Below are positions 8,545 to 50,646 of a stretch of DNA of 64,000 nucleotides, one piece after another (position 1 is the first letter of the stretch; each line of letters starts with the position of its first letter). Source of the stretch: an uncultured Gammaproteobacteria bacterium. Its GTDB lineage: Bacteria; Pseudomonadota; Gammaproteobacteria; Eutrophobiales; Eutrophobiaceae. The notes under the pieces were generated by a model that saw only the letters and a list, made by a program, of their open reading frames with translations, ran no database searches and was not told where the DNA came from. Position numbers and translations under genes: made by a program. The stretch lies in contig OY282354.1 of assembly GCA_958295485.1 (NCBI GenBank), positions 1,054,001 through 1,118,000 on the forward strand, read 5' to 3'.

Positions 8545-9714
8545 TCAGATCTGCCGGAAATCCCGGTTTTTTCTGCGTAATATCTCCAGGCGGCCCTGTA
8601 AATCATCCCGGCAGACGTAGCAGCCCTGCAAATGGCGATAACCGCTGTCAGGGTCAAAGGCGTTGCGCGCGTGCAGGATTCGGTAGTTATCGAATACCTG
8701 ACAATCGCCCTTGTTCAGGCGAAACCTGAACTGCATTTCAGCGCTGGTCGCGATAGCAAGAAACGCTCGATGCGCCCGGTAAAATTCCGCCTGTAATTCC
8801 GGTTCGATATCAACCGGTCCCAGCAGCGCCGGATGCAACCGGGCGCCGATAATATCACCATCTTCATCGACTTCGATAATAGCCCCGCGATTGACGATGT
8901 GCCAGTCATCGGCCATGGAACTGAATGTCACCGGCCGGGTACTCAAAAGGTTGAAAGCGGCAGGGTCCAGTTGTTGCAACTTTCTGGCCGAAGCAATGGA
9001 ATCAAGCAGGATACTTTCCCCGCCCCTGGCCTCATTATGCAAGCAATGCAGAAATTGGATACCCGGCAAATGCCGGCGACTGGGAAGGTCATTGTGAGGG
9101 TGCAACGCCTTCGAAGTATAGGCCAGGTTTTCGGGGTTTGGCTTTGACTCCACATCGAAATAACGACCAAAATGGGACTCTTCGAGGAAGGCGACGCGTT
9201 CGGCTAACCTGATAACGGCAAGGTTATCCGAGGGAACGTCGGTAACGATGCCAACGCCCACGTCGTCGATATGCTCCAACAGTTCGAGCAGGCCCTCCGG
9301 GCTGTTCATTACGCCGATAAAATCAACTGATACCGCTTTTTTACTGAACTCGGCGGCAGTCCAGGCGGTACGCCGTTTTTTGCGCGCCAGGCGTGCGGTT
9401 CGTTCACAGCGATGCTGGTCCAGCCAGCCCCAGCTGTAGTTACTGCCATCACAGGGGGCTTCATGTTCAGGCCAGGCGATATGCAGCCCGCGGGCATCGC
9501 TGCTGAACGATACGGGGGCTATATCCAGTGGAATCGCCATGAAGTCGACAATGCGCTCCCAGGCCTCCTGGTGGGTGCATTTCGGACAATGACAATTCTC
9601 CCTCAGCCAATAATAAAGGTGGCGACTGCTGTAACCCCCGGGCCAGGTAATATTCAGGCTGTCTGCCTGCGCTTCCACCCGGGGAATTTGACCTTGGGTG
9701 TCTTCGGCGCTCAT
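8545..9714 (-). CDS. Gamma-butyrobetaine-hydroxylase-like Fe(II)/2OG dioxygenase
   Basis: This is a 389-residue two-domain protein. Residues about 18-95 form the DUF971-type zinc domain with CHCPKCTH and a later His (AWPEHEAPCDGSNYSWGWL). Residues about 130-380 form a TauD/TfdA jelly roll with the metal site HPHNDLP near residue 205 and ILHARNAFD near 347, followed by Arg in GYRHLQGCYV. This order is that of gamma-butyrobetaine and trimethyllysine hydroxylases and of the bacterial 2-(trimethylamino)ethylphosphonate dioxygenases. It probably hydroxylates a quaternary-ammonium or carnitine-precursor compound with 2-oxoglutarate and O2. No carnitine genes flank it, so the substrate is open. It lies upstream of the TonB receptor on the same strand, 157 bp away. 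Confidence 0.85.
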   Translation of the reverse strand: MSAEDTQGQIPRVEAQADSLNITWPGGYSSRHLYYWLRENCHCPKCTHQEAWERIVDFMAIPLDIAPVSFSSDARGLHIAWPEHEAPCDGSNYSWGWLDQHRCERTARLARKKRRTAWTAAEFSKKAVSVDFIGVMNSPEGLLELLEHIDDVGVGIVTDVPSDNLAVIRLAERVAFLEESHFGRYFDVESKPNPENLAYTSKALHPHNDLPSRRHLPGIQFLHCLHNEARGGESILLDSIASARKLQQLDPAAFNLLSTRPVTFSSMADDWHIVNRGAIIEVDEDGDIIGARLHPALLGPVDIEPELQAEFYRAHRAFLAIATSAEMQFRFRLNKGDCQVFDNYRILHARNAFDPDSGYRHLQGCYVCRDDLQGRLEILRRKNRDFRQI

Positions 9715-9857
9715 ATTTGCACTGTCGGCTTTGGTAGTTCGGAAAAAAATGATTGACGATTATGACCGATGACGGGATATTACACCAGAAGCGCCATCTT
9801 CCGACCAGGGCTGTTCCAAAGTCGGGTCAAACCCGCGGAGCAGGGGCAGGAAAAGCC

Positions 9858-9886
9858 TTGACAAGAGGCGATTGCGATATTATTCT
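9858..9886 (+). promoter_or_regulatory. Sigma70-like promoter for the coiled-coil gene
   Basis: TTGACA at 9858-9863 and TATTCT at 9881-9886 are separated by 17 bp. They sit about 50 bp before the start codon at 9936, which has a strong AGGAGGT ribosome-binding site. Confidence 0.55.
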
Positions 9887-9935
9887 TGGCCCTGCATTGA
9901 AAACTTGAAAATGGATATGACATAGGAGGTGGATT

Positions 9936-10451
9936 ATGAGTCGCGAAATACCTGATACTACCCTTACTGACCGTGATTTCGAAGTAGCGCGCCAACTCGG
10001 CATGCTCTCCGGCGAGGTGCGGGTTCTAAAATGGGCAGGCCTTGTTGTTGTTACTGCTTTTCTCAGTTTTTACGGTTTCCTGTACAACGAAATCGGCAAT
10101 GTCCGTAGCGATGTCGCTAGTCTTCGTAGCGACATGCTTCAGGTGCAAATTGAACTTAACCAAGGGCTGACTGAACTTCGCCAGGGGATAGCCGGTCTTA
10201 ACCAGCAGATAACTGGTCTTAACCAACAGATAACTGGTCTTAACCAACAGATGGATGAGCTTCGTCAAGGGCAAGTTGGCCTTCGCAATCAATTGACGAG
10301 TGTCGAAGGGCGGTTGACGAACGTCGAAGGACGGTTGACGAGTGTCGAAGGGCGATTGACGAATGTTGAAGGACGGTTGACAGGTGTCGAAGAGCGACTC
10401 GGCGTACAATCGACGGTGTCTGTTTTATCTTTGGATGAGGCTACCCCGTAG
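9936..10451 (+). CDS. Membrane-anchored heptad-repeat coiled-coil protein
   Basis: This 171-residue protein has one transmembrane segment at about 32-50 (WAGLVVVTAFLSFYGFLY) and then a long coiled coil with exact seven-residue repeats: three of the type ITGLNQQ and five of the type LTSVEGR/LTNVEGR. The start is supported by AGGAGGTGGATT immediately upstream. Proteins of this layout are widespread and generally uncharacterised; they can act as spacers, sensors or stalks in the periplasm, but no enzymatic domain is present. It stands alone between the divergent dioxygenase gene and the convergent GntR gene. The repeats are nearly identical at DNA level, so its length is expected to vary between strains. 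Confidence 0.75.
   Translation: MSREIPDTTLTDRDFEVARQLGMLSGEVRVLKWAGLVVVTAFLSFYGFLYNEIGNVRSDVASLRSDMLQVQIELNQGLTELRQGIAGLNQQITGLNQQITGLNQQMDELRQGQVGLRNQLTSVEGRLTNVEGRLTSVEGRLTNVEGRLTGVEERLGVQSTVSVLSLDEATP
10190..10400 (+). repeat. Two 21-bp coding minisatellites (heptad repeats)
   Basis: Within the coiled-coil gene, a 21-bp unit (GGTCTTAACCAACAGATAAC plus T) occurs three times around 10194-10256. A different 21-bp unit (TTGACGAGTGTCGAAGGGCG plus G, alternating agtg/aacg) occurs about five times around 10293-10395. Each unit encodes one heptad, so copy-number changes keep the reading frame and the coiled-coil register. Confidence 0.85.
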
Positions 10452-39806: not shown

Positions 39807-40931
39807 TTATACAACCGGGATCACTTTACCGTCATATTCAGTTTCAGTCGCTTTTCTGATCAATTCCACCAGCGCCGGGTTACGGGGATCGGGTATCTTT
39901 GTGTCATTCTCTTTGCGCAGCTGGTCCAGGATGCGGCGACACCGGACTGTAGCGCTGTCCATGGACAACAACACCGGGTCGACGTCGTCGATATCTACCG
40001 CGCCCAGTGATTGCAACATGTTTTGTTGGGCCTCGATCATGGGCTTGTCCTGGGTCCCGAACGCCGTTTCTATTGCCTGGGTCCAGATTTTATCCATTTC
40101 AGCGCTGTCCTTGTCATGGTCCCTGGCAACGCCCCAATAATAATAAGTGGATGTTTCATCCTTGGGTGTGAGGATATCCGTGCCATACATCCAGATACCT
40201 TCGTTTCGCGGTTTGCCCTTGGGGGTAATGCCTACGTCCAGCAACATGTGACAAGGGGCGTCCCAGCGCATATACAACCAATGGTCTACGGGCTTGCCAT
40301 AGTCGTTGAACATGTGGTCCCAGGCCGGTGGCGCCAGCCCGTCCGGGCACCATCGGTTCGACCACACGGTTGTCCCGTCTTGCAGGAGTTCATGTTGCCC
40401 GCGCTTGATGGCGTCGCTTCCCAATATGCCCTTGTGCAGGAACTCTACGTGGGAAAGGTCCATCAGGTTATCTGAAATCAGCTCGTAGCAGCCATCCATT
40501 TCTATGACGCCCTGTACCGAAGGGTAATCAGCGTTGGTATGGCAACTGAAATCAGGAATGGTTTCAGGGGCGGCCAGGGCGGGGTCGCCCATCCAGATCC
40601 ACAACATGTTATGGACTTCTTCCAGCGGGTAGGCCCTGGTGCGCATTCTTTCAGGAATCCTGCCGTCTCCATGGGGATTATGCACGCATTGACCGGTACC
40701 GTCATAACGCAGTCCGTGATAGGCGCACTCGACCACGTCCCCCAACAACGTGCCCATGTGCAAGGGTGAATACCGATGTGGGCAGGTATTGTTTATAGCA
40801 ACCGCTTCATTATTTTCCTTACGGTAGAACAAGACGGATTCACCGATGATGGTGCGTTCAAACAGTTCCTTTTTAACTTCATAGCTCCATGCCGCAACAT
40901 ACCAGGCATTTTTCAGGAAAGGTTTTGCCAT
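39807..40931 (-). CDS. Rieske non-haem iron oxygenase, VanA/DdmC-like O-demethylase type
   Basis: This 374-residue oxygenase subunit has the Rieske site NTCPHRYSPLHMG...VECAYHG (Cys/His pairs about residues 49-72) and the mononuclear iron motif DNLMDLSHVEFLH (Asp/His/His about 155-167). Length and the NLMDLSHxxxxH form fit the vanillate/dicamba O-demethylase group, which cleave aryl-methyl ethers or hydroxylate rings, rather than alpha-beta ring dioxygenases. It needs a ferredoxin/reductase; a matching [2Fe-2S] ferredoxin lies at 48555-48830. Its promoter carries ATATCGATAT sites, linking it to the same regulon as the two plus-strand operons. It is transcribed toward, and converges with, the Mcd-like gene. 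Confidence 0.92.
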   Translation of the reverse strand: MAKPFLKNAWYVAAWSYEVKKELFERTIIGESVLFYRKENNEAVAINNTCPHRYSPLHMGTLLGDVVECAYHGLRYDGTGQCVHNPHGDGRIPERMRTRAYPLEEVHNMLWIWMGDPALAAPETIPDFSCHTNADYPSVQGVIEMDGCYELISDNLMDLSHVEFLHKGILGSDAIKRGQHELLQDGTTVWSNRWCPDGLAPPAWDHMFNDYGKPVDHWLYMRWDAPCHMLLDVGITPKGKPRNEGIWMYGTDILTPKDETSTYYYWGVARDHDKDSAEMDKIWTQAIETAFGTQDKPMIEAQQNMLQSLGAVDIDDVDPVLLSMDSATVRCRRILDQLRKENDTKIPDPRNPALVELIRKATETEYDGKVIPVV

Positions 40932-41227: not shown

Positions 41228-42520
41228 ATGTCGAACGGAAACCAGATCCACGCAAAACGACCCATGTACCCCAGAAACTTACAACCTTTCCTTGAAGAAT
41301 TACTTATGGAATTCCGTGTGCTTTACCTGACGGGTCCTCGACAGGCGGGCAAAACCACACTGGCGCGCGCCGTTGCCGGAAATTTGGATATGGACTACAT
41401 TACCTTGGACGATCAGGCGATTCTGGCATCCGTTGAAACAGACCCACATGGTTTTATACGTTCCTTGGGTCCCAGGAAAGTAGTACTGGACGAGTTTCAA
41501 TATGCCCCAGGCCTGATTCCTGCCATTAAAGAGGTTTCAGACCGATTGGCCCCCAATGAAAAGGGCAAATTTTTATTGACGGGGTCAACGGATATATTTC
41601 GCTCTGCTCACGCCCGGGAATCTTTACCGGGACACTTGGCGCGACTGGAGCTTTACCCTCTTTCCATTACTGAAATGACAGGGCAATCCCTGAATATTAT
41701 CGACTATCTGTTGGGCGGAAAATTTCAGTCAAAGCCAGTTCCTTTCATCAGCCGGGAGCAGCTTGCCGGATTGCTGTTAAATGGTGGTTACCCGGAGATA
41801 CAAGATAAAAGTGTTCGAGGGAAACAGGTATGGTTTAAATCCTATATGGAGGGGAGACTGTATAAAGATTTTGAAAGCCTGTATGCGGCGCGTGGCGACT
41901 ATCATTCCAAACTGCACGCCTTGGCGCCTTATCTCGCCGGACTGAGTGGCAACCTGTTAAAATACTCGAATATTGCCAATGACCTGGAACTGAACGACAA
42001 ACTGGTAAAAAACTATATTGAAATTCTCGAATTGATGTTTATCATCCGCCGACTCCCCGCCTGGTTAAAAAACCGTGCAAAGAGGATGGCGACGCGAATG
42101 CCGAAAATGCACTTTGTCGATACCGGCCTTGCCTGTCATCTGCTGGGGTTGCGTAACGAAGAGCAATTGCTGCAAAGTCAGCATTATGGTGGGTTGCTGG
42201 AGAATCTGGTGTGCATGGAATGTTGCAAGCAAGCATCCTGGGCGCGGGAAGACGTCAATTTATATCACTTTCGGAATAATCGGAAACGCGAAGTCGATAT
42301 TATCCTGGAGAGAAACAATGCAAAGATCGTCGGCATTGAAATCAAGGCTTCAACAAGCGTGAAACCTTTGGATTTCAAGGGGTTGGCAATGTTGGCAGAG
42401 TTTGCCGGCAAACAGTTTGAACGAGGCGTCCTGTTTTATACGGGACAGGAAATACTGCCGTTTCAATACGGAAGCCTGACTTTTCATGCATTGCCGATTG
42501 GCCTGATCCTGTCGGATTAG
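41228..42520 (+). CDS. AAA-family ATPase with DUF4143 domain
   Basis: This 430-residue protein has an AAA_14 ATPase domain with Walker A GPRQAGKTTLARA (about 37-49), Walker B KVVLDEFQYAPGLIP, and sensor-like FLLTGSTDIF. The C-terminal DUF4143 domain contains the PD-(D/E)XK-like block FRNNRKREVDIILERNNAKIVGIEIKAS. These widespread proteins have no agreed function; roles in stress, toxin-like activity or mobile elements have been suggested. ATG 41228 or 41264 could be the start. The five-box tandem repeat upstream suggests dedicated control. It does not belong to the catabolic theme and its 3' end abuts the permease array, so it may mark an insertion point. Confidence 0.88.
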   Translation: MSNGNQIHAKRPMYPRNLQPFLEELLMEFRVLYLTGPRQAGKTTLARAVAGNLDMDYITLDDQAILASVETDPHGFIRSLGPRKVVLDEFQYAPGLIPAIKEVSDRLAPNEKGKFLLTGSTDIFRSAHARESLPGHLARLELYPLSITEMTGQSLNIIDYLLGGKFQSKPVPFISREQLAGLLLNGGYPEIQDKSVRGKQVWFKSYMEGRLYKDFESLYAARGDYHSKLHALAPYLAGLSGNLLKYSNIANDLELNDKLVKNYIEILELMFIIRRLPAWLKNRAKRMATRMPKMHFVDTGLACHLLGLRNEEQLLQSQHYGGLLENLVCMECCKQASWAREDVNLYHFRNNRKREVDIILERNNAKIVGIEIKASTSVKPLDFKGLAMLAEFAGKQFERGVLFYTGQEILPFQYGSLTFHALPIGLILSD

Positions 42521-42549
42521 AAAGCGAATTATTGATCCTGGATATATAG
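42521..42549 (+). pseudogene. 3' sliver of a ferredoxin gene (array unit 1)
   Basis: AAAGCGAATTATTGATCCTG and the following GATATATAG match the last codons (KSELLVLDI-stop) of the intact ferredoxin gene ending at 48830. It lies directly after the ATPase stop codon and before permease copy 1. Confidence 0.8.
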
Positions 42550-42556
42550 AAGCTCC

Positions 42557-44326
42557 ATGCAGCCTGCAACCAGTCAGCGCGACCAGAACGTCCTTTATGA
42601 GCCCGACGAGCGGCCACCGCACGCAATAACCTTCTTAGTAGGTTTTCAGAATGCCGGGGTCGCTATTGCGAGCGTTGCGCTCATGCCGGCTATCGTGGCG
42701 CGGGCCGCGGGCACAGGCGAGCCTTACCTGTCGTGGTCGGTCTTCGCGGCGCTTATCGTGTGCGGGTTGACCACGATGCTGCAAGCCGTGCGCATCGGGC
42801 GCATCGGCGCCGGATATATCCTCCTGATGGGGGCCTCCGGCGCCTTTGTCGCAGTTTGCGTGACGGCGCTTGTCGAAGGCGGACCGGCAATGCTGGCGAC
42901 CCTGATTGTCATCTCGTCGCTGGCCCAGTTCGCGCTCTCGGCGCATCTTTCCCTGCTGCGGCGGATCATCACGCCAACCGTGGTAGGTACCGTGATCATG
43001 CTGAGCCCCGTGACCGTCATGCCGATCGTTTTCGACACGTTGACAGACGTGCCGGCAGGAACGCCGCCCCTCGCCGCGCCCGCCAGCGCCGCCGTGACCT
43101 TGGTCGTCATGGTGATGCTTGTGCTCCGGGTTTCAGGCGTGTGGCGTCTCTGGGTGCCGGTCATGGGGATCATCGCAGGTTGCCTCGTTGCCTCGTTCTT
43201 TGGCCTTTATGACATCGGGCGCGTGGGCGCAGCCGCCTGGATTGGGGTTCCCACGAGTGGCTGGCCGGGGTTTGACCTCGGGTTTGGCCCCGTTTTCTGG
43301 TCGCTCCTGCCGGCCTTCGTGTTTATGAACCTGGTCATCGCCATCAGGACGATTGGCGACGCTATCGCCATCCAGAAGGTCTCGTGGCGCCGGCCGCGCG
43401 CCCCGGACTTTCAGGTGGTGCAAGGCGCGGTTGCGGCAAACGGCATGGGCAGCCTGCTTTCCGGTTTAGTCAGCACGGTGCCAAGCGCGGTCTACTCCTT
43501 GAGTACTTCCATTACGGAACTCACCGGCGTTGCCGCGCGTGGCGTCGGCGTGTGTATCGGCATCGTGTTTTTGGCGGCGGCCTTCCTGCCCAAGTTATCG
43601 GCGCTCCTGCTGGCGGTCCCGAATCCCGTAGCCGCGGCTTATTTGCTGGTGCTAATGGCGCTGCTCTTCATGTTGGGTGTGGAGATCATCGTCCAGGACG
43701 GCGTGGACTACCGCAAGGCGACGGTGGCGGGGGTTTCGTTCTGGGTCGGGGTGGGATTCCAGCACCAGCTTATTTTCGCGGAATATATCGGCGAAAGGTG
43801 GCTTACGTTGCTCAGCAACGGCATCACAGCCGGTGGCCTCACGGCGGTCCTGCTGACCCTGTTCATCGGATTGACAGCGCCCCGCAGCCGGCGCATTGAG
43901 ACCGCGCTTGCCGTTGCGGACTTGCCGAAGATCAGGGCTTTCCTGGAAGCGTTCGCCGCCCGCCGGGGTTGGAATGTCGCGATGGCGGATCGCCTGTGTC
44001 TGGCAGCTGAGGAAACCCTGCAGATACTCATTCAGCAGGGGGAAGACGAAGCTACGGCGAAAGAGCGACGTTTGCGCCTGGTGGCGCGCAGCGATGGCGC
44101 CAGCGCGGCCAATCTCGAGTTTGTGGCTGCAACCGGTGAAGGGAATATCGAGGATCACATAGCCATCCTCGGGGAACGGGATGTCAACACCCCTCTCGAA
44201 CATGAAATCTCGCTCCGGCTGCTGCGACAGTTCACCTCATCCGTGCGCCACCAGCAATATCACGACTCGGATATTGTGACGATCCGCATTGACGTCCCGC
44301 CGCGGGAGAGAGAAACAACGACGTAA
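42557..44326 (+). CDS. NCS2 (xanthine/uracil permease family) transporter with C-terminal GHKL-like domain (copy 1)
   Basis: This 589-residue protein has an N-terminal part (about 25-440) with 12 or more hydrophobic helices and NCS2 landmarks aligning with UraA: VIAIRTIGDAIAIQ (TM8), then GLLSGLVSTVPSAVYSLSTSITELTGVAARGVG (TM10 region) and VDYRKATVAGVSF. The C-terminal 140 residues are cytosolic and resemble an anti-sigma/GHKL ATPase fold (FAARRGWNVAMADRLCLAAEETLQILI). At the UraA Glu241 position it has Arg264, and the GEN/Glu290 motif reads STS, so nucleobase transport cannot be assumed. It is copy 1 of four tandem paralogues. Confidence 0.8.
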   Translation: MQPATSQRDQNVLYEPDERPPHAITFLVGFQNAGVAIASVALMPAIVARAAGTGEPYLSWSVFAALIVCGLTTMLQAVRIGRIGAGYILLMGASGAFVAVCVTALVEGGPAMLATLIVISSLAQFALSAHLSLLRRIITPTVVGTVIMLSPVTVMPIVFDTLTDVPAGTPPLAAPASAAVTLVVMVMLVLRVSGVWRLWVPVMGIIAGCLVASFFGLYDIGRVGAAAWIGVPTSGWPGFDLGFGPVFWSLLPAFVFMNLVIAIRTIGDAIAIQKVSWRRPRAPDFQVVQGAVAANGMGSLLSGLVSTVPSAVYSLSTSITELTGVAARGVGVCIGIVFLAAAFLPKLSALLLAVPNPVAAAYLLVLMALLFMLGVEIIVQDGVDYRKATVAGVSFWVGVGFQHQLIFAEYIGERWLTLLSNGITAGGLTAVLLTLFIGLTAPRSRRIETALAVADLPKIRAFLEAFAARRGWNVAMADRLCLAAEETLQILIQQGEDEATAKERRLRLVARSDGASAANLEFVAATGEGNIEDHIAILGERDVNTPLEHEISLRLLRQFTSSVRHQQYHDSDIVTIRIDVPPRERETTT

Positions 44327-44393
44327 CATCTTCGGTTCCGGCAAAATCAGGGCCGGCCCTTTCAAAACAGCCCCCAAACCCTCTTTCGACGAA

Positions 44394-44438
44394 CAGCGGG
44401 AACTTCACACTTCAAACTTCACCCAGCAGTTCCCGCTG
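44394..44438. repeat. Inverted repeat in the inter-permease region
   Basis: CAGCGGGAACT (44394-44404) and AGTTCCCGCTG (44428-44438) form a perfect 11-bp stem with a 23-nt loop, after permease copy 1 and before the ferredoxin remnant. It may be a terminator-like hairpin (no U-tract) or an element end. Confidence 0.6.
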
Positions 44439-44452
44439 CCAGTGGGGACTAT

Positions 44453-44813
44453 TTGGTATTTCCCTGTGGATTCAGGTATGATCGCGCAAATGTTAGAGGT
44501 GAAGGCAGCAGGCGCCGGCGATACCTGTACCGTCGATGTATGGGGTCTCCATTGCCAATGCTCTGGGCGAGCGCGGGATAATCATTCCCGCGTCATGTAG
44601 GGGATATGCGGCGCCTGTCTGACAAAGGTCCTGGAAGGCGAACCGGACGCATCATAAATCAAAGACCTGACCCCATCATACGTGGCAAAGATCCTGGAAG
44701 GCAAACCGGAGTATAATGATATGTTTCTTACGGATGAAGAAAGAGCGGCCAACGACCAGATAACCCTGTGCTGTTCCCGGGCCAAAAGCGAATTATTGGT
44801 CCCGGATATATAG
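44453..44813 (+). pseudogene. Decayed [2Fe-2S] ferredoxin gene (array unit 2)
   Basis: Aligned with the intact gene (48555-48830), this copy has an extra base near 44540 (GTCGATGTATGG vs GTCGAGGATGG), a 5-base deletion that destroys the first cysteine motif (TGTAGGGG vs TGTGAACAGGGG), and an insertion of about 60 bp near 44648-44690 that contains the 27-bp dispersed repeat and a partial duplication (GGCAAAGATCCTGGAAGGCA). The 3' end is intact. It cannot encode a cluster-binding protein. Confidence 0.9.
44650..44676. repeat. 27-bp dispersed repeat, copy B
   Basis: Identical to 37894-37920. Here it lies within the insertion in the decayed ferredoxin gene, showing it entered that gene. Confidence 0.75.
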
Positions 44814-44820
44814 AATCAAC

Positions 44821-46590
44821 ATGCAGCCTGCAACCGGTCACCGCGACGAGCACGTCCTCTATGAACCCGACGATCGGCCACCGCGCGCAGTAACCCTCTT
44901 ACTGGGTTTTCAGGCTGCCGCCGTCACTATTTCAACCATTGTGCTCATGCCGGCTATCGTGGCGCGGGCCGCGGGCGCAGGCGATCCTTACCTGTCGTGG
45001 TCGGTCTTCGCGGCGCTTATCGTCAGCGGGTTGACCACGATGCTGCAAGCCGCGCGCATCGGGCGCATCGGCGCCGGGTATATCTTCCTGATGGGGACCT
45101 CCAGCGCCTTTATCGCGGTTTGCGCGACAGCGCTTGTCGAGGGTGGACCGGCAATGTTGGCGACCCTGATTGTCGTCTCGTCGTTGATCCAGTTCACGCT
45201 CTCAAGGCATCTTTCCCTGCTGCGGCGGATCATCACGCCAACCGTGGCGGGTACCGTGATCATGTTGATCGCCGTGACCGTCATGCCGATCGTCTTCGAT
45301 AAGTTGACAGACGTGCCGGCAGGAACGCCGACCCTTGCCGCGCCCGCCAGCGCCGGCGCGACCTTGATCGTCATGGTGATGCTTGTGCTCCGGGTTTCCG
45401 GCATGTGGCGTCTCTGGGTGCCGCTCATGGGGATCGTCGCGGGTTGCCTCGTTGCCTCGTTCTATGGCCTTTATGACGTCCGGCGCGTGGTCGCAGCCGC
45501 CTGGATTGGGGTTCCCACGGGCGGTTGGCCGGGGTTTGACCTCGGGTTTGGTCCCGTTTTCTGGTCGCTCCTGCCAGCCTTCGTGCTTGTGACCCTGGTC
45601 ACCGCCATCAAGACGATTGGCGACGCTGTCGCCATCCAGAGAATCTCGTGGCGCCGGCCGCGCGCCCCGGACTTTCGGGTGGTGCAAGGCGCGGTTGCGG
45701 CAGCCAGCGTGGGCAACCTGCTTTCCGGTTTAGTCAGCACGGTGCCGAACATAGCCTACTCTACGGGTATTTCCATCGCGGAACTCACCGGCGTTGCCGC
45801 GCGCCGCGTCGGCGTATGCGTCGGCATCGTATTTTTGGCGGCGGCCTTCCTGCCCAAGTTGTTGGCGCTCCTGCTGGCGGTCCCGAATCCTGTCGTCGCG
45901 GCTTATTTGCTGGCGCTATTGTCGCTGCTCTTCGTGTTGGGTATGCGGATCATCGTCCAGGACGGCGTGGACTACCGCAAGGCGACGGTGGTGGGGGTTT
46001 CATTCTGGACCGGGGTGGGATTCCAGAACCAGCTTATCTTCGCGGAATATATCGATGAAAGGTGGCTTATGTTGCTCGGCAACGGCATCACAGCCGGTGG
46101 TCTCACGGCGGTCCTGCTGACCCTGTTCATCGAATTGACGGCGCCCCGCAGCCGACGCATTGAGACCGCGCTTGCCGTTGCGGACTTGCCGAAGATCAGG
46201 GCTTTCCTGGAAGCGTTCGCCGCCCGCCGGGGTTGGAATGTCGCGATGGCGGATCGCCTGTGTCTGGCGGCTGAGGAAACCCTGCAGATACTCATTCAGC
46301 AAGGGGAGGACGAAGCTGCGGAGAAAAGGCGACGTTTGCGCTTGGTAGCGCGCAGCGATGGCGCCAGCGCGGCCAATCTCGAGTTTGTGGCTGCAACCGG
46401 TGAAGGGAATATCGAGGATCACATGGCCATCCTCGCGGAACGGGACGTCACCGCCCCTCTCGAACATGAAATCTCGCTCCGGCTGCTGCGACAGTTCGCC
46501 TCATCCGTGCGCCACCAGCAATATCACGACTCGGATATTGTGACGATCCGCATTGACGTCCCGCCGCGGGAGAGAGAAACAACGGCGTAA
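44821..46590 (+). CDS. NCS2-type permease with GHKL-like domain (copy 2)
   Basis: This 589-residue paralogue of copy 1 starts with the same MQPATGHRD leader. The membrane part differs from copy 1 mainly in TM1 (LLGFQAAAVTISTIVLMPAI) and the TM10 loop (STVPNIAYSTGISIAELTG). The C-terminal domain is almost unchanged (MADRLCLAAEETLQILIQQGEDEA). The UraA Glu241 position is Lys264. Like the other copies it has no obvious ribosome-binding site but follows the ferredoxin stop by 7 bp, so translation is likely coupled to the upstream ferredoxin frame in the intact unit; here the ferredoxin copy is decayed. Confidence 0.8.
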   Translation: MQPATGHRDEHVLYEPDDRPPRAVTLLLGFQAAAVTISTIVLMPAIVARAAGAGDPYLSWSVFAALIVSGLTTMLQAARIGRIGAGYIFLMGTSSAFIAVCATALVEGGPAMLATLIVVSSLIQFTLSRHLSLLRRIITPTVAGTVIMLIAVTVMPIVFDKLTDVPAGTPTLAAPASAGATLIVMVMLVLRVSGMWRLWVPLMGIVAGCLVASFYGLYDVRRVVAAAWIGVPTGGWPGFDLGFGPVFWSLLPAFVLVTLVTAIKTIGDAVAIQRISWRRPRAPDFRVVQGAVAAASVGNLLSGLVSTVPNIAYSTGISIAELTGVAARRVGVCVGIVFLAAAFLPKLLALLLAVPNPVVAAYLLALLSLLFVLGMRIIVQDGVDYRKATVVGVSFWTGVGFQNQLIFAEYIDERWLMLLGNGITAGGLTAVLLTLFIELTAPRSRRIETALAVADLPKIRAFLEAFAARRGWNVAMADRLCLAAEETLQILIQQGEDEAAEKRRRLRLVARSDGASAANLEFVAATGEGNIEDHMAILAERDVTAPLEHEISLRLLRQFASSVRHQQYHDSDIVTIRIDVPPRERETTA

Positions 46591-46610
46591 CATCTTCGGG
46601 TCTGGTAAAA

Positions 46611-46709
46611 AATGATATGCTTCTTACGGATGAAGAAAGAGCGGCCAACGATCAAATGACCCTGCGCTGTTCCCGGGCCAAAAGCGAATTATTAGTCCTG
46701 GATATATAG
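46611..46709 (+). pseudogene. 3' fragment of a ferredoxin gene (array unit 3)
   Basis: The sequence equivalent to NDMLLTDEERAANDQMTLRCSRAKSELLVLDI is retained up to the stop at 46707-46709, but the N-terminal two-thirds, with three of the four cluster cysteines, is missing. It begins immediately after the tail of permease copy 2. Confidence 0.9.
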
Positions 46710-46716
46710 AATCTCC

Positions 46717-48495
46717 ATGCAGCCTGCAACCGGTCACCGCGACCAGTACGTCCTTTATGAGCCCGACGAGCGGCCACCGCGCGCAGTAACCATCCTACTG
46801 GGTTTTCAGGCTGCCACAGTCACTATTTCAACCATTGTGCTCATGCCGGCTATTGTGGCGCGGGCCGCGGGCGCGGGCGAGACTTACCTGTCGTGGTCGG
46901 TCTTCGCGGCGCTTATCGTGAGCGGGTTGACTACGATGCTGCAAGCCACGCACATCGGGCACGTCGGGCGCATCGGCGCTGGATATATCCTCGTGATGGG
47001 GGCCTCCGGCGCCTTTATCGCGGTTTGCGTGACGGCGCTTGTCGAAGGCGGGCCGGCAATGTTGGCGACCCTGATTGTCGTCTCGTCGTTGATCCAGTTC
47101 GCGCTCTCGGCGCATCTCTCCCTGCTGCGGCGGATCATCACACCAACCGTGACGGGTACCGTGATCATGCTGAGCGCCGTGACTGTCATGCCGATCGTCT
47201 TCGATAAGTTGACAGACGTGCCGGCAGGAACGCCGCCCCTCGCCGCGCCGGCCAGCGCCGCCGCGACCTTGGTCGTCATCGTGATGCTTGTGCTCCGGGT
47301 TTCCGGCGTGTGGCGTCTCCGGGTGCCGCTCATGGGGATCGTCGCGGGTTGCCTCGTTGCCTCGTTCTTTGGGCTTTATGACGTCCGGCGCGTGGGCGCA
47401 GCCGCCTGGATTGGGGTTCCCACGGGCGGCTGGCCGGGATTTGACCTCGGGTCTGGTCCCGTTTTCTGGTCGCTCCTGCCGGCCTTCGTGCTTGTAACCC
47501 TGGTCACCGCCATCAAGACGATTGGCGACGCTGTCGCCATCCAGAGGGTCTCGTGGCGCAAGCCGCGCGCCCCGGACTTTCGGGTGGTGCAAGGCGCGGT
47601 TGCGGCAGCCAGCGTGGGCAACCTGCTTTCCGGTTTAGTCAGTACAGTGCCGAACATAGCCTACTCCGCGGGTACTTCCATCACGGAACTCACCGGCGTT
47701 GCCGCGCGCCGCGTCGGCGTATGTATCGGCATCGTGTTTTTGGCGGCGGCCTTCCTGCCCAAGTTGTCGGCGCTCCTGCTGGCGGTCCCGAATCCCGTAG
47801 TCGCGGCCTATTTGCTGGTGCTAATGTCGCTGCTTTTGATATTGGGTATGCGGATCATCGTCCAGGACGGCGTGGACTACCGCAAGGCGACGGTGGTGGG
47901 GGTTTCGTTCTGGGTCGGGGTGGGATTCCAGAACCAGCTCATCTTTGCGGAATATATCGGCGAAAGGTGGCTTGTGTTGCTCGGCAACGGCATCACAGCC
48001 GGTGGCCTCACGGCGATCCTGCTGACCCTGTTCATCGAATTGACGGCGCCCCGTAGCCAGCGCATCGAGACCGCGCTTGCGGTCGCGGACTTGCCGAAGA
48101 TCAGGGCTTTCCTGGAAGCGTTCGCCGCCCGCCGGGGTTGGAATGTCGCGATGGCGGATCGCCTGTGTCTGGCGGCTGAGGAAACCCTGCAGATACTCAT
48201 TCAGCAAGGGGAGGACGAAGCTACGGCCAAAGGGCGGCGTTTGCGCCTGGTGGCGCGCAGCGATGGCGCCAGCGCGGCCAATCTCGAGTTCGTGGCTGCA
48301 ACCAGTGAAGGGAATATCGAGGATCACATGGCTATCCTAGCGGAACGGGACGTCACCGCCCCCCTCGAACATGAAATCTCGCTCCGGTTGCTGCGACAGT
48401 TCACTTCATCCGTGCGCCACCAGCAATATCACGACTCGGATATTGTGACGATCCGCATTGACGTCCTGCCGCGGGAGAGAGAAACAACGGCGTAA
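46717..48495 (+). CDS. NCS2-type permease with GHKL-like domain (copy 3)
   Basis: This 592-residue copy is very close to copy 2 but has a 3-residue insertion from a 9-bp tandem duplication (ATHIGHVGRIGAGYI vs ARIGRIGAGYI). TM10 reads STVPNIAYSAGTSITELTG, and Lys267 replaces the UraA Glu241 residue. The C-terminal domain is again nearly identical to the other copies. It is followed by the only intact ferredoxin gene of the array. Confidence 0.8.
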   Translation: MQPATGHRDQYVLYEPDERPPRAVTILLGFQAATVTISTIVLMPAIVARAAGAGETYLSWSVFAALIVSGLTTMLQATHIGHVGRIGAGYILVMGASGAFIAVCVTALVEGGPAMLATLIVVSSLIQFALSAHLSLLRRIITPTVTGTVIMLSAVTVMPIVFDKLTDVPAGTPPLAAPASAAATLVVIVMLVLRVSGVWRLRVPLMGIVAGCLVASFFGLYDVRRVGAAAWIGVPTGGWPGFDLGSGPVFWSLLPAFVLVTLVTAIKTIGDAVAIQRVSWRKPRAPDFRVVQGAVAAASVGNLLSGLVSTVPNIAYSAGTSITELTGVAARRVGVCIGIVFLAAAFLPKLSALLLAVPNPVVAAYLLVLMSLLLILGMRIIVQDGVDYRKATVVGVSFWVGVGFQNQLIFAEYIGERWLVLLGNGITAGGLTAILLTLFIELTAPRSQRIETALAVADLPKIRAFLEAFAARRGWNVAMADRLCLAAEETLQILIQQGEDEATAKGRRLRLVARSDGASAANLEFVAATSEGNIEDHMAILAERDVTAPLEHEISLRLLRQFTSSVRHQQYHDSDIVTIRIDVLPRERETTA

Positions 48496-48554
48496 CATCT
48501 TCGGGTCCGGTAAAGCGTCATGTGAACACTTGGTATTTCCCCGTGGATTCAGGT

Positions 48555-48830
48555 ATGATCGCGCAAATGTTCAAGGTGAAGACAGCAAGCACCGGCGATA
48601 CCTATACCGTCGAGGATGGGGTCTCCATTGTCAATGCCCTGGGCGAGCACGGGATAATCATTCCCGTGTCATGTGAACAGGGGATATGCGGTACCTGTCT
48701 GACAAAGGTCCTGGAAGGCGAACCGGAGCATAATGATATGTTTCTTACGGATGAAGAAAGAGCGGCCAACGATCAAATGACCCTGTGCTGTTCCCGGGCC
48801 AAAAGCGAATTATTGGTCCTGGATATATAG
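48555..48830 (+). CDS. [2Fe-2S] plant-type ferredoxin (PDR/VanB C-terminal-domain-like)
   Basis: This small ferredoxin of about 91 residues has all four cluster cysteines: SCEQGICGTCLTKVLEGEP (three Cys) and MTLCCSRA (the fourth). It resembles the C-terminal ferredoxin domain of phthalate dioxygenase/vanillate demethylase reductases but lacks the flavin and NADH domains. That makes it a stand-alone electron carrier, plausibly for the Rieske oxygenase at 39807, with the reductase elsewhere. Start is uncertain: ATG 48555 or 48567, neither with a good ribosome-binding site. It ends 7 bp before permease copy 4. Confidence 0.85.
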   Translation: MIAQMFKVKTASTGDTYTVEDGVSIVNALGEHGIIIPVSCEQGICGTCLTKVLEGEPEHNDMFLTDEERAANDQMTLCCSRAKSELLVLDI

Positions 48831-48837
48831 AATCAAC

Positions 48838-50595
48838 ATGCAGCCTGCAACCAGTCAACGCAACCAGTACATCCTTTATGAGCCCGCCGAGCGGCCGCCA
48901 CGCGCAGTAACCCTCTTTGTGGGTTTTCAGACTGCCTCGCTCACTATTGCAGGCATTGTGCTTACGCCGGCTATCGTGGCGCGGGCTGCGGGCACAGGCG
49001 AGACTTACCTGTCGTGGGCGGTCTTCGCGGCGCTTATCGTCAGCGGGTTGACCACGATGCTGCAAGCCGCGCGCATCGGGCGTTTCGGCGCCGGGTATAT
49101 CCTCCTGATGGGAACCTCCGGCGCCTTTATCGCAGTTTGCGTGACGGCGCTTGTCGAAGGCGGACCGGCAATGTTGGCGACCCTGATTGTCGTCTCGTCG
49201 CTGATCCAGTTCGCGCTCTCGAGGCATCTTTCCCTGCTGCGGCGGATCATCACGCCAACCGTGGCGGGTACCGTGATCATGTTGATCGCCGTGACCGTCA
49301 TGCCGATCATCTTCGACATGTTGACAGACGTGCCGGCAGGAACGCCGACCCTCGCCGCGCCCGCCAGCGCCGGCGCGACCTTGGTCGTCACCGTGATGCT
49401 TGTGCTCCGGGTTTCTGGCATGTGGCGTCTCTGGGTGCCGGTCATAGGGATCACCGCGGGCTGCATCGTTGCCTCGTTCTTTGGCCTTTATGACGTCCAG
49501 CGCGTGGACGCAGCCGCCTGGATTGGGGTTCCCACGGGTGGTTGGCCGGGGTTTGACCTCGGGTTTGGCCCCGTTTTCTGGTCGCTCCTGCCGGCCTTCG
49601 TGTTTGTGACCCTGGTCGGCGCCATCGAGACGATTGGCGACGCTGTCGCTGTCCAGAAGATCTCGTGGCGCAAGCCGCGCGCCCCGGACTTTCGGGTGGT
49701 GCAAGGCGCGGTTGCGGCAGACGGCATGGGCAACCTGCTTTCCGGTTTTGCCGGCACGATGCCGAACACGACCTACTCATCGAGTATTGCCATCACGGAA
49801 ATCACCGGCGTTGCCGCGCGTGGCGTCGGCGTGTGTATCGGCATCGTATTTTTGGTGGTGGCCTTCCTGCCCAAGTTGTCGGCGGTCCTGCTGGCGATCC
49901 CGAATCCCGTAGTCGCGGCTTATTTGCTGGTGCTAATAGCGCTACTCTTCGTGTTGGGTATGCGGATCATCGTCCAGGACGGCGTGGACTACCGCAAGGC
50001 GACGGTGGCGGGGGTTTCGTTCTGGATCGGGGTGGGATTCCAGAACCAGCTCATCTTCGCGGAATATATCGACGAAAGGTGGCTTGCGTTGCTCAGCAAC
50101 GGCATGACATCCGGTGGCCTCACGGCGGTCCTGCTGACCCTGTTCATCGAATTGACGGCGCCCCGCAGCCAGCGCATTGAGACTGCGCTTGCGGTCGCGG
50201 ACTTGCCGAAGATCAGGGCTTTCCTGGAAGCGTTCGCCGCCCGCCGGGGCTGGAATGTCGCGATGGCGGATCGTTTGTGTCTGGCAGCTGAGGAAACCAT
50301 GCAGATACTCATTCAGCAAGGGGAAGATGAAACTGCGGAGAAAAGGCGGCGTTTGCGCCTGGTGGCGCGTAGCGATGGCGCCAGCGCGGCCAATCTCGAG
50401 TTCGTGGCTGCAACCGGTGAAGGGAATATTGAGGATCACATGGCCATCCTCGCGGAACGGGACGTCACCGCCCCTCTCGAACATGAAATCTCGCTCCGGC
50501 TGTTGCGACAGTTCACTTCATCCGTGCGGCACCAGCAATATCACAACTCGGATATTGTGACGATCCGCATTGACGTCCCGCCGCGGGAGAGATAA
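48838..50595 (+). CDS. NCS2-type permease with GHKL-like domain (copy 4)
   Basis: This 585-residue protein is the most family-like copy: TM8 reads GAIETIGDAVAVQ with Glu264 at the UraA Glu241 position, and TM10 reads GFAGTMPNTTYSSSIAITEITG, close to the canonical GSTPNTTY block. Other copies have Arg or Lys and altered TM10. The stop comes four codons earlier than in the other copies (RER then TAA). The C-terminal domain is as in the others. It is probably the least diverged transporter of the array and the best candidate for a functional nucleobase-type carrier. Confidence 0.82.
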   Translation: MQPATSQRNQYILYEPAERPPRAVTLFVGFQTASLTIAGIVLTPAIVARAAGTGETYLSWAVFAALIVSGLTTMLQAARIGRFGAGYILLMGTSGAFIAVCVTALVEGGPAMLATLIVVSSLIQFALSRHLSLLRRIITPTVAGTVIMLIAVTVMPIIFDMLTDVPAGTPTLAAPASAGATLVVTVMLVLRVSGMWRLWVPVIGITAGCIVASFFGLYDVQRVDAAAWIGVPTGGWPGFDLGFGPVFWSLLPAFVFVTLVGAIETIGDAVAVQKISWRKPRAPDFRVVQGAVAADGMGNLLSGFAGTMPNTTYSSSIAITEITGVAARGVGVCIGIVFLVVAFLPKLSAVLLAIPNPVVAAYLLVLIALLFVLGMRIIVQDGVDYRKATVAGVSFWIGVGFQNQLIFAEYIDERWLALLSNGMTSGGLTAVLLTLFIELTAPRSQRIETALAVADLPKIRAFLEAFAARRGWNVAMADRLCLAAEETMQILIQQGEDETAEKRRRLRLVARSDGASAANLEFVAATGEGNIEDHMAILAERDVTAPLEHEISLRLLRQFTSSVRHQQYHNSDIVTIRIDVPPRER

Positions 50596-50646
50596 ACAAC
50601 GGCGTAACATCTTCGGGTCCGGCAAAATCAAGGGCCGGCCATTTCA

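Follow-up and report, generated by a model that had tools for sequence, protein, structure and literature searches.

Four tandem NCS2 permeases with a degenerate RsbW-like domain in a gammaproteobacterium, and a possible route from carrier to receptor

The window analysed here is a stretch of 64,000 nucleotides from the genome of an uncultured gammaproteobacterium. It contains an array of four co-directional genes of the NCS2 permease family, each encoding a carrier extended by a C-terminal domain that resembles the anti-sigma factor RsbW. The genes lie head to tail on the + strand, have intact frames and span 42557-50595:

42557..44326, + strand: copy 1, an open reading frame (ORF) for an NCS2 protein (PF00860) with an RsbW-like C-terminal domain, 589 residues; R264, N295
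44821..46590, + strand: copy 2, an ORF of the same composition (PF00860), 589 residues; K264, A295
46717..48495, + strand: copy 3, NCS2 with RsbW-like domain, 592 residues owing to a 3-residue insertion; Lys and Ala at the equivalents of E264 and D295
48838..50595, + strand: copy 4, NCS2 with RsbW-like domain, 585 residues; E264 and D295 retained; nearest to the family outside the array

All four score far over the PF00860 cut-off (130-172 bits against 27), and no further PF00860 gene was found in the whole 3.74-Mb genome. The copies are 84-87% identical to one another in protein and 91-93% in DNA. A first-pass annotation, made from the sequence alone, had described four NCS2 paralogues of 585-592 residues in tandem, and this description stands. 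The repeat unit comprises a ferredoxin gene and a permease gene.

The membrane part belongs with well-studied carriers. By phmmer, copy 4 aligns with UapA and UraA, and the full-length model matches UapA (Foldseek E 2e-14), SVCT1 and UraA, with a core/gate fold of 14 transmembrane segments (TM). Mapping of copy 4 onto UapA equates Q31 with Q85, E264 with E356, D268 with D360, D295 with D388, S315 with Q408 and S316 with N409. E264, D268 and D295 are invariant in all 29 outside relatives, every one of which has Ser/Thr-Ser as its TM10 pair, and copy 4 retains the three acidic residues together with the Ser pair. Copies 1-3 carry R, K and K, respectively, at 264 and N, A and A at 295. The TM8 codons concerned are:

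49627..49629, + strand: GAG, E264 of copy 4 (UapA E356, UraA E241)
43346-43348, + strand: the matching Arg codon of copy 1
45610-45612, + strand: the matching Lys codon of copy 2
47515-47517, + strand: the matching Lys codon of copy 3

In UapA, residues Q85, E356, D388 and N409 have been described as irreplaceable, and the substitution E356D raises substrate affinity 18-fold and abolishes transport (PMC3405029). At the equivalent sites copy 4 has Q, E, D and S, and copies 1-3 have Q, R/K, N/A and S/G. The full irreplaceable set is incomplete in all four copies, the Q85 equivalent being kept by all and that of N409 lost family-wide. Copies 1-3 depart from family-conserved residues at 24-28 positions, against 11 in copy 4. 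The excess peaks in TM8-10, where 7-10 of the 47 conserved sites are changed in copies 1-3 and 3 in copy 4; the C-terminal domain, with 2 and 3 changes, respectively, at 31 such sites, shows none.

The C-terminal domains occupy the following positions:

43877..44323, + strand: C-terminal pseudo-RsbW domain of copy 1
46141..46587, + strand: C-terminal pseudo-RsbW domain of copy 2
48046..48492, + strand: C-terminal pseudo-RsbW domain of copy 3
50158..50592, + strand: C-terminal pseudo-RsbW domain of copy 4 (residues 441-585, the one modelled)

The C-terminal parts of copies 1-3 are 92-97% identical to that of copy 4. A GHKL/anti-sigma-like domain had been proposed here in the first-pass annotation, and both profile and structural searches bear this out. 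HATPase_c_2 scores 21-24 bits in full-length scans, below the cut-off of 27.4, which the isolated copy 4 domain reaches with 28.1 bits; 23 of 37 family members match at E<=0.01. The AlphaFold model of the copy 4 domain (predicted local distance difference test, pLDDT, 77; predicted template modelling score, pTM, 0.75) shows the strand order of GHKL domains, namely strand-helix-helix-strand-strand-helix-strand-strand. All 19 Foldseek matches in the PDB at E<=0.001 are UsfX, RsbW or SpoIIAB complexes (best 8.9e-8), and the next is the RsbW domain of Rv1364c. A sequence search of solved structures with the domain profile gave chance matches only. By profile and predicted structure, then, the domain is of RsbW-like (anti-sigma) fold. 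The Mg-ATP residues of RsbW-type proteins, members of the GHKL superfamily, are the N-box Asn, the DxGxG motif and the G2 glycines. These are missing in 33 of 33 sequences: in the N-box region position 489 is L, Q, A or H and position 490 is T, I, S, A or L, the DxGxG pattern is absent at 521-530, and E550 and S552 occupy G2. The 33 sequences share an invariant set of their own, composed of E485, E486, E521, N530, D533, S552-L-R, H565, Y568, D572 and T575. Since the ATP-binding residues are missing in all relatives, the domain appears to be a pseudo-kinase serving a distinct, conserved function, not an active GHKL kinase.

The first-pass annotation had also set a nearly invariant C-terminus against a variable TM1 and TM8-TM10, and here the substitution ratios, synonymous divergence (dS) and identities agree. 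In the C-terminal domain, the ratio of nonsynonymous to synonymous differences (pN/pS) is 0.09-0.25 in five of the six copy pairs and 0.49 between copies 1 and 2. Because dS in this domain is as high as in the membrane part, its constancy reflects selection, and recent gene conversion is ruled out as the cause. Some mosaic patterns between copies (runs test P 0.006) suggest occasional gene conversion among them. Change is fastest in TM1 and TM8-10, where pN/pS is about 1-2 between copy 1, copy 4 and the copy 2/3 pair; an excess of nonsynonymous changes is never significant in either region (smallest P 0.069). Between copies 2 and 3, which share the lysine, the dN/dS of the membrane part is 0.37, with a significant nonsynonymous deficit in TM2-7 (P 0.006) and TM11-14. 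These two copies are under purifying selection, and thus the lysine type is maintained and does not represent simple decay. The earlier suggestion of selection for new substrates is not demonstrated, given that pN/pS in TM8-10 never significantly exceeds 1 and that copies 1-3 lack two residues reported as irreplaceable for transport in UapA. An altered role would explain this loss no less well than an altered substrate.

The same fusion was sought elsewhere by a pattern-based scan of 84,980 species genomes, which returned 37 loci outside the array in at least eight phyla (Latescibacterota, Gemmatimonadota, Pseudomonadota, Binatota, Deinococcota, Nitrospirota, Acidobacteriota and Rhodothermota). 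The fusion, which the first-pass annotation had called unusual in itself, is thus a family of wide distribution, present in at least 37 other genomes; it is the array alone that is unusual, no second one being seen among the relatives found in the scan. Most of the genomes with these loci hold one to five paralogues. Among 398 genomes sampled evenly across the phylum, only one besides the array host contained the C-terminal domain. Judged by bin names, 18 of the 37 loci are tied to sponge metagenomes: the prefixes RHO, COS, CAR and IRC match sponge species of PMC8163846 (a prefix-based inference), PMC5649159 lists accession MPNO/bin129 under Aplysina aerophoba, and two further MPN records were assigned to sponge by accession series. 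No catabolic gene context conserved across phyla was found around the fusion genes. At one locus (L055:5111-7421) the neighbours of a fusion gene are TauD and a fused allantoinase-like/OHCU decarboxylase gene, which hints at purine or allantoin substrates.

RpoB places the array genome in the Gammaproteobacteria, with identities of 70% to Pseudomonadales, 57% to Alphaproteobacteria and 49% to Latescibacterota. The branching pattern of the permeases, obtained by a quick tree search, conflicts with this placement: the array is sister to a Latescibacterota clade (Shimodaira-Hasegawa-like approximate likelihood ratio test, SH-aLRT, 98; 74% identity), and the orthologues in sibling genomes are only 65% identical to the array and fall apart from it. 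The conflict points to horizontal transfer of the fusion gene into this gammaproteobacterium, and the donor lineage would be kin to that of the Latescibacterota copies. The first branch within the array leads to copy 4 (support 97). The sibling loci L112 and L116 contain NCS2 paralogues without the C-terminal domain beside large polyketide-synthase-like genes and an RND-efflux-like gene, and the L112 paralogue has Arg at the TM8 site. In the array genome, the relic of a fifth C-terminal domain, 36% identical, with one stop and without an NCS2 part, lies at G000:C1:2389695-2390048 (~5700-6050 of L113), with a transposase-like frame ~2.4 kb away.

Additional clues come from distant NCS2 proteins with a C-terminal extension, which were present in 7 of the 369 genomes sampled from the class. 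At loci L117 and L176, both from distant gammaproteobacteria, the NCS2 gene is flanked by a STAS gene on one side and a SpoIIE-type phosphatase gene on the other. At L177:4624-10056 the extended NCS2 gene is followed by a STAS gene, a gene for a UrtA-similar periplasmic binding protein (ABC-type) and a chemoreceptor-like gene, possibly forming a sensory operon. The neighbours of L117 were checked with Pfam, and those of L176 and L177 were read from the sequence by eye. The TM8 site is Lys in L117 and L176, His in L177, and Arg or Asn in the other four proteins; the basic residue of the STAS-linked proteins repeats the change seen in copies 1-3. The array genome itself encodes one strong SpoIIE-type phosphatase and two STAS proteins, almost identical to each other, that carry Ser in the YISSAGLRV loop. 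The anti-anti-sigma-like STAS genes (L186:3484-3828 and 9601-9945; contig 1, near 1799.5 and 1805.7 kb) stand ~6 kb apart, and one directly precedes an ammonium-transporter-like gene. Partners are thus available in the genome but unlinked to the array.

We favour a reading, to which we would give an even chance, in which copy 4 transports and copies 1-3 bind ligand without coupled transport and relay occupancy to the shared pseudo-RsbW domain. Copy 4 would still be able to carry a compound resembling a nucleobase or a hydantoin. Copies 1-3, having lost the TM8 glutamate and the TM9 aspartate and gained a basic residue in the pocket, would most likely be ligand receptors (transceptors) or facilitators with an altered ligand, and their C-terminal domain stayed under strong purifying selection while the pockets changed. 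Ligand occupancy would alter the binding partner of the pseudo-RsbW domain, plausibly a STAS anti-anti-sigma protein, and might thereby affect transcription or transport activity. The domain would act by partner binding, an ATP-dependent kinase step being unlikely. More speculatively, and with distinctly lower expectation, the array may exemplify an undescribed class of membrane receptors derived from NCS2 carriers, in which a non-coupling pocket controls a degenerate anti-sigma domain and hence partner-switching. Such a class would have spread horizontally among sponge symbionts, and at this locus the parent transporter would have been multiplied into three receptors whose pockets differ. Several observations weigh against the proposed receptor role. 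Inspection by eye revealed no STAS, SpoIIE or sigma gene adjoining the array or its close relatives, and homology between the array and STAS-linked C-terminal domains is marginal (hhalign E 1e-4, probability 57%). The outside relatives keep the domain alongside a normal Glu, so the domain needs no non-transporting membrane part. Finally, confidence is moderate for the domain model (pLDDT 77) and low for the full-length one (67).

The main rival follows the first-pass annotation: all four copies would be working permeases that differ in substrate and have a regulatory domain in common, a scenario that we regard as possible without thinking it probable. The C-terminal domain would then merely support or gate transport, as STAS does in SLC26 carriers, and E264K/R and D295N/A would change the specificity, an anionic substrate being one example, along with the coupling. 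The pace of change in TM1 and TM8-10 fits this scenario, as do the sibling genomes, whose four or five paralogues have E, D, K, R or G at the TM8 site, and those relatives that adjoin allantoinase-like/OHCU decarboxylase, DUF1989 or hydantoinase-like genes. However, the nonsynonymous excess never reaches significance, the context genes are not conserved, and transport by UapA does not tolerate replacement of the E and D equivalents (PMC3405029).

In an alternative scenario the array was amplified for dosage and then decayed, copies 1-3 being on their way to pseudogenes and their pocket changes neutral. Their surplus of departures from conserved residues and the actual decay of ferredoxins in the same repeat units would be accounted for, but the data fit poorly and we consider this unlikely: all four frames are intact, pN/pS of the C-terminal domain is low in five of six pairs and 0.49 in copies 1-2, dN/dS of the membrane part is 0.37 between copies 2 and 3, and the changes are concentrated in TM8-10 rather than spread evenly. 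An assembly artefact, with fewer real copies, has nothing beyond the repetitiveness of the locus to recommend it. The array sits inside the first contig (3.57 Mb) of a 6-contig assembly, which makes collapse or misassembly unlikely, and the copies differ by 7-9% in DNA and have different spacers. This explanation also fits poorly, and we judge it very improbable.

The remaining features of the array and its flank bear on its history:

39807..40931, - strand: VanA-type Rieske oxygenase, the ferredoxin's neighbour in sibling genomes, divergent there
41228..42520, + strand: AAA_14/DUF4143 ATPase gene, an apparent insertion between the Rieske gene and the ferredoxin
42521..42551, + strand: final ~31 bp of a ferredoxin gene upstream of copy 1, directly against the inserted ATPase gene
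44453..44815, + strand: ferredoxin relic before copy 2, with an in-frame stop and a small internal duplication
46611..46713, + strand: ferredoxin 3' remnant (~100 bp) before copy 3
48522..48830, + strand: intact [2Fe-2S] ferredoxin before copy 4, its conserved part beginning with the ATG at 48567, which agrees with the sibling genomes
50605..50646, + strand: tail of the repeat unit after copy 4, common with the stretch 3' of copy 1

A ferredoxin or its relic had been noted before each copy; traces do precede all four, but the gene is intact before copy 4 only. In two sibling genomes the same ferredoxin (~80-83% identical) adjoins, in divergent orientation, a Rieske oxygenase with 83% identity to that of the window, and the permeases are located elsewhere, away from this pair. 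The ATPase gene looks inserted, since it occupies precisely the space that separates the Rieske gene from the ferredoxin tail, two elements that are neighbours in the siblings. Given the sibling arrangement, gene order is most simply explained if the ferredoxin is the redox partner of the Rieske oxygenase and the permease arrived beside it. A functional partnership of ferredoxin and permease was rejected as the simplest reading in view of that pairing, and no named relative has this ferredoxin within 8 kb. The fusion gene would have settled beside the ferredoxin gene and then been amplified with it as a ferredoxin-permease unit, after which the surplus ferredoxins would have decayed.

Both domains are already known individually. 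What look new are the pseudo-RsbW-tailed NCS2 family, its spread among apparently sponge-associated phyla, and an array with repeated loss of coupling residues; we found no published account of an NCS2/anti-sigma fusion in the open-access papers searched. If the receptor reading holds, a nucleobase carrier fold would be wired directly to an anti-sigma switch, nutrient sensing would be tied to gene expression without a two-component system, and one parent with three derivatives at a single locus would offer a natural series for the change from transporter to sensor. That the fusion seems concentrated in sponge-associated bacteria from many phyla points to a common ligand supplied by the host.

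Compared with NAT/NCS2 permeases of the UraA, UapA and XanQ/PbuX type, the array proteins share the fold and PF00860, and copy 4 and the outside relatives also share the TM8 Glu and TM9 Asp. Unlike those permeases, the fusion family replaces UapA Q408 and N409 (TM10 Gln/Glu and Asn) with Ser/Thr and Ser, the array proteins carry an added cytosolic RsbW-like domain, and copies 1-3 lack the Glu and the Asp. That domain resembles the anti-sigma serine kinases RsbW, SpoIIAB and UsfX (HATPase_c_2) in predicted fold, top Foldseek matches and Pfam match, but it lacks the N-box Asn, DxGxG and GxGxG, is fused to a 14-TM carrier and has its own conserved residue set. SLC26/SulP transporters similarly combine the same class of membrane fold with a C-terminal module of the kind used in anti-sigma partner switching; they bear the STAS side, whereas the array fusion bears the anti-sigma side. 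Finally, the STAS-NCS2-SpoIIE operons of L117 and L176, and L177 with its STAS gene, also encode an NCS2 protein with a C-terminal extension and a basic TM8 residue, but these proteins are ~26% identical to the array, and the partner genes adjoin at the distant loci and not at the array.

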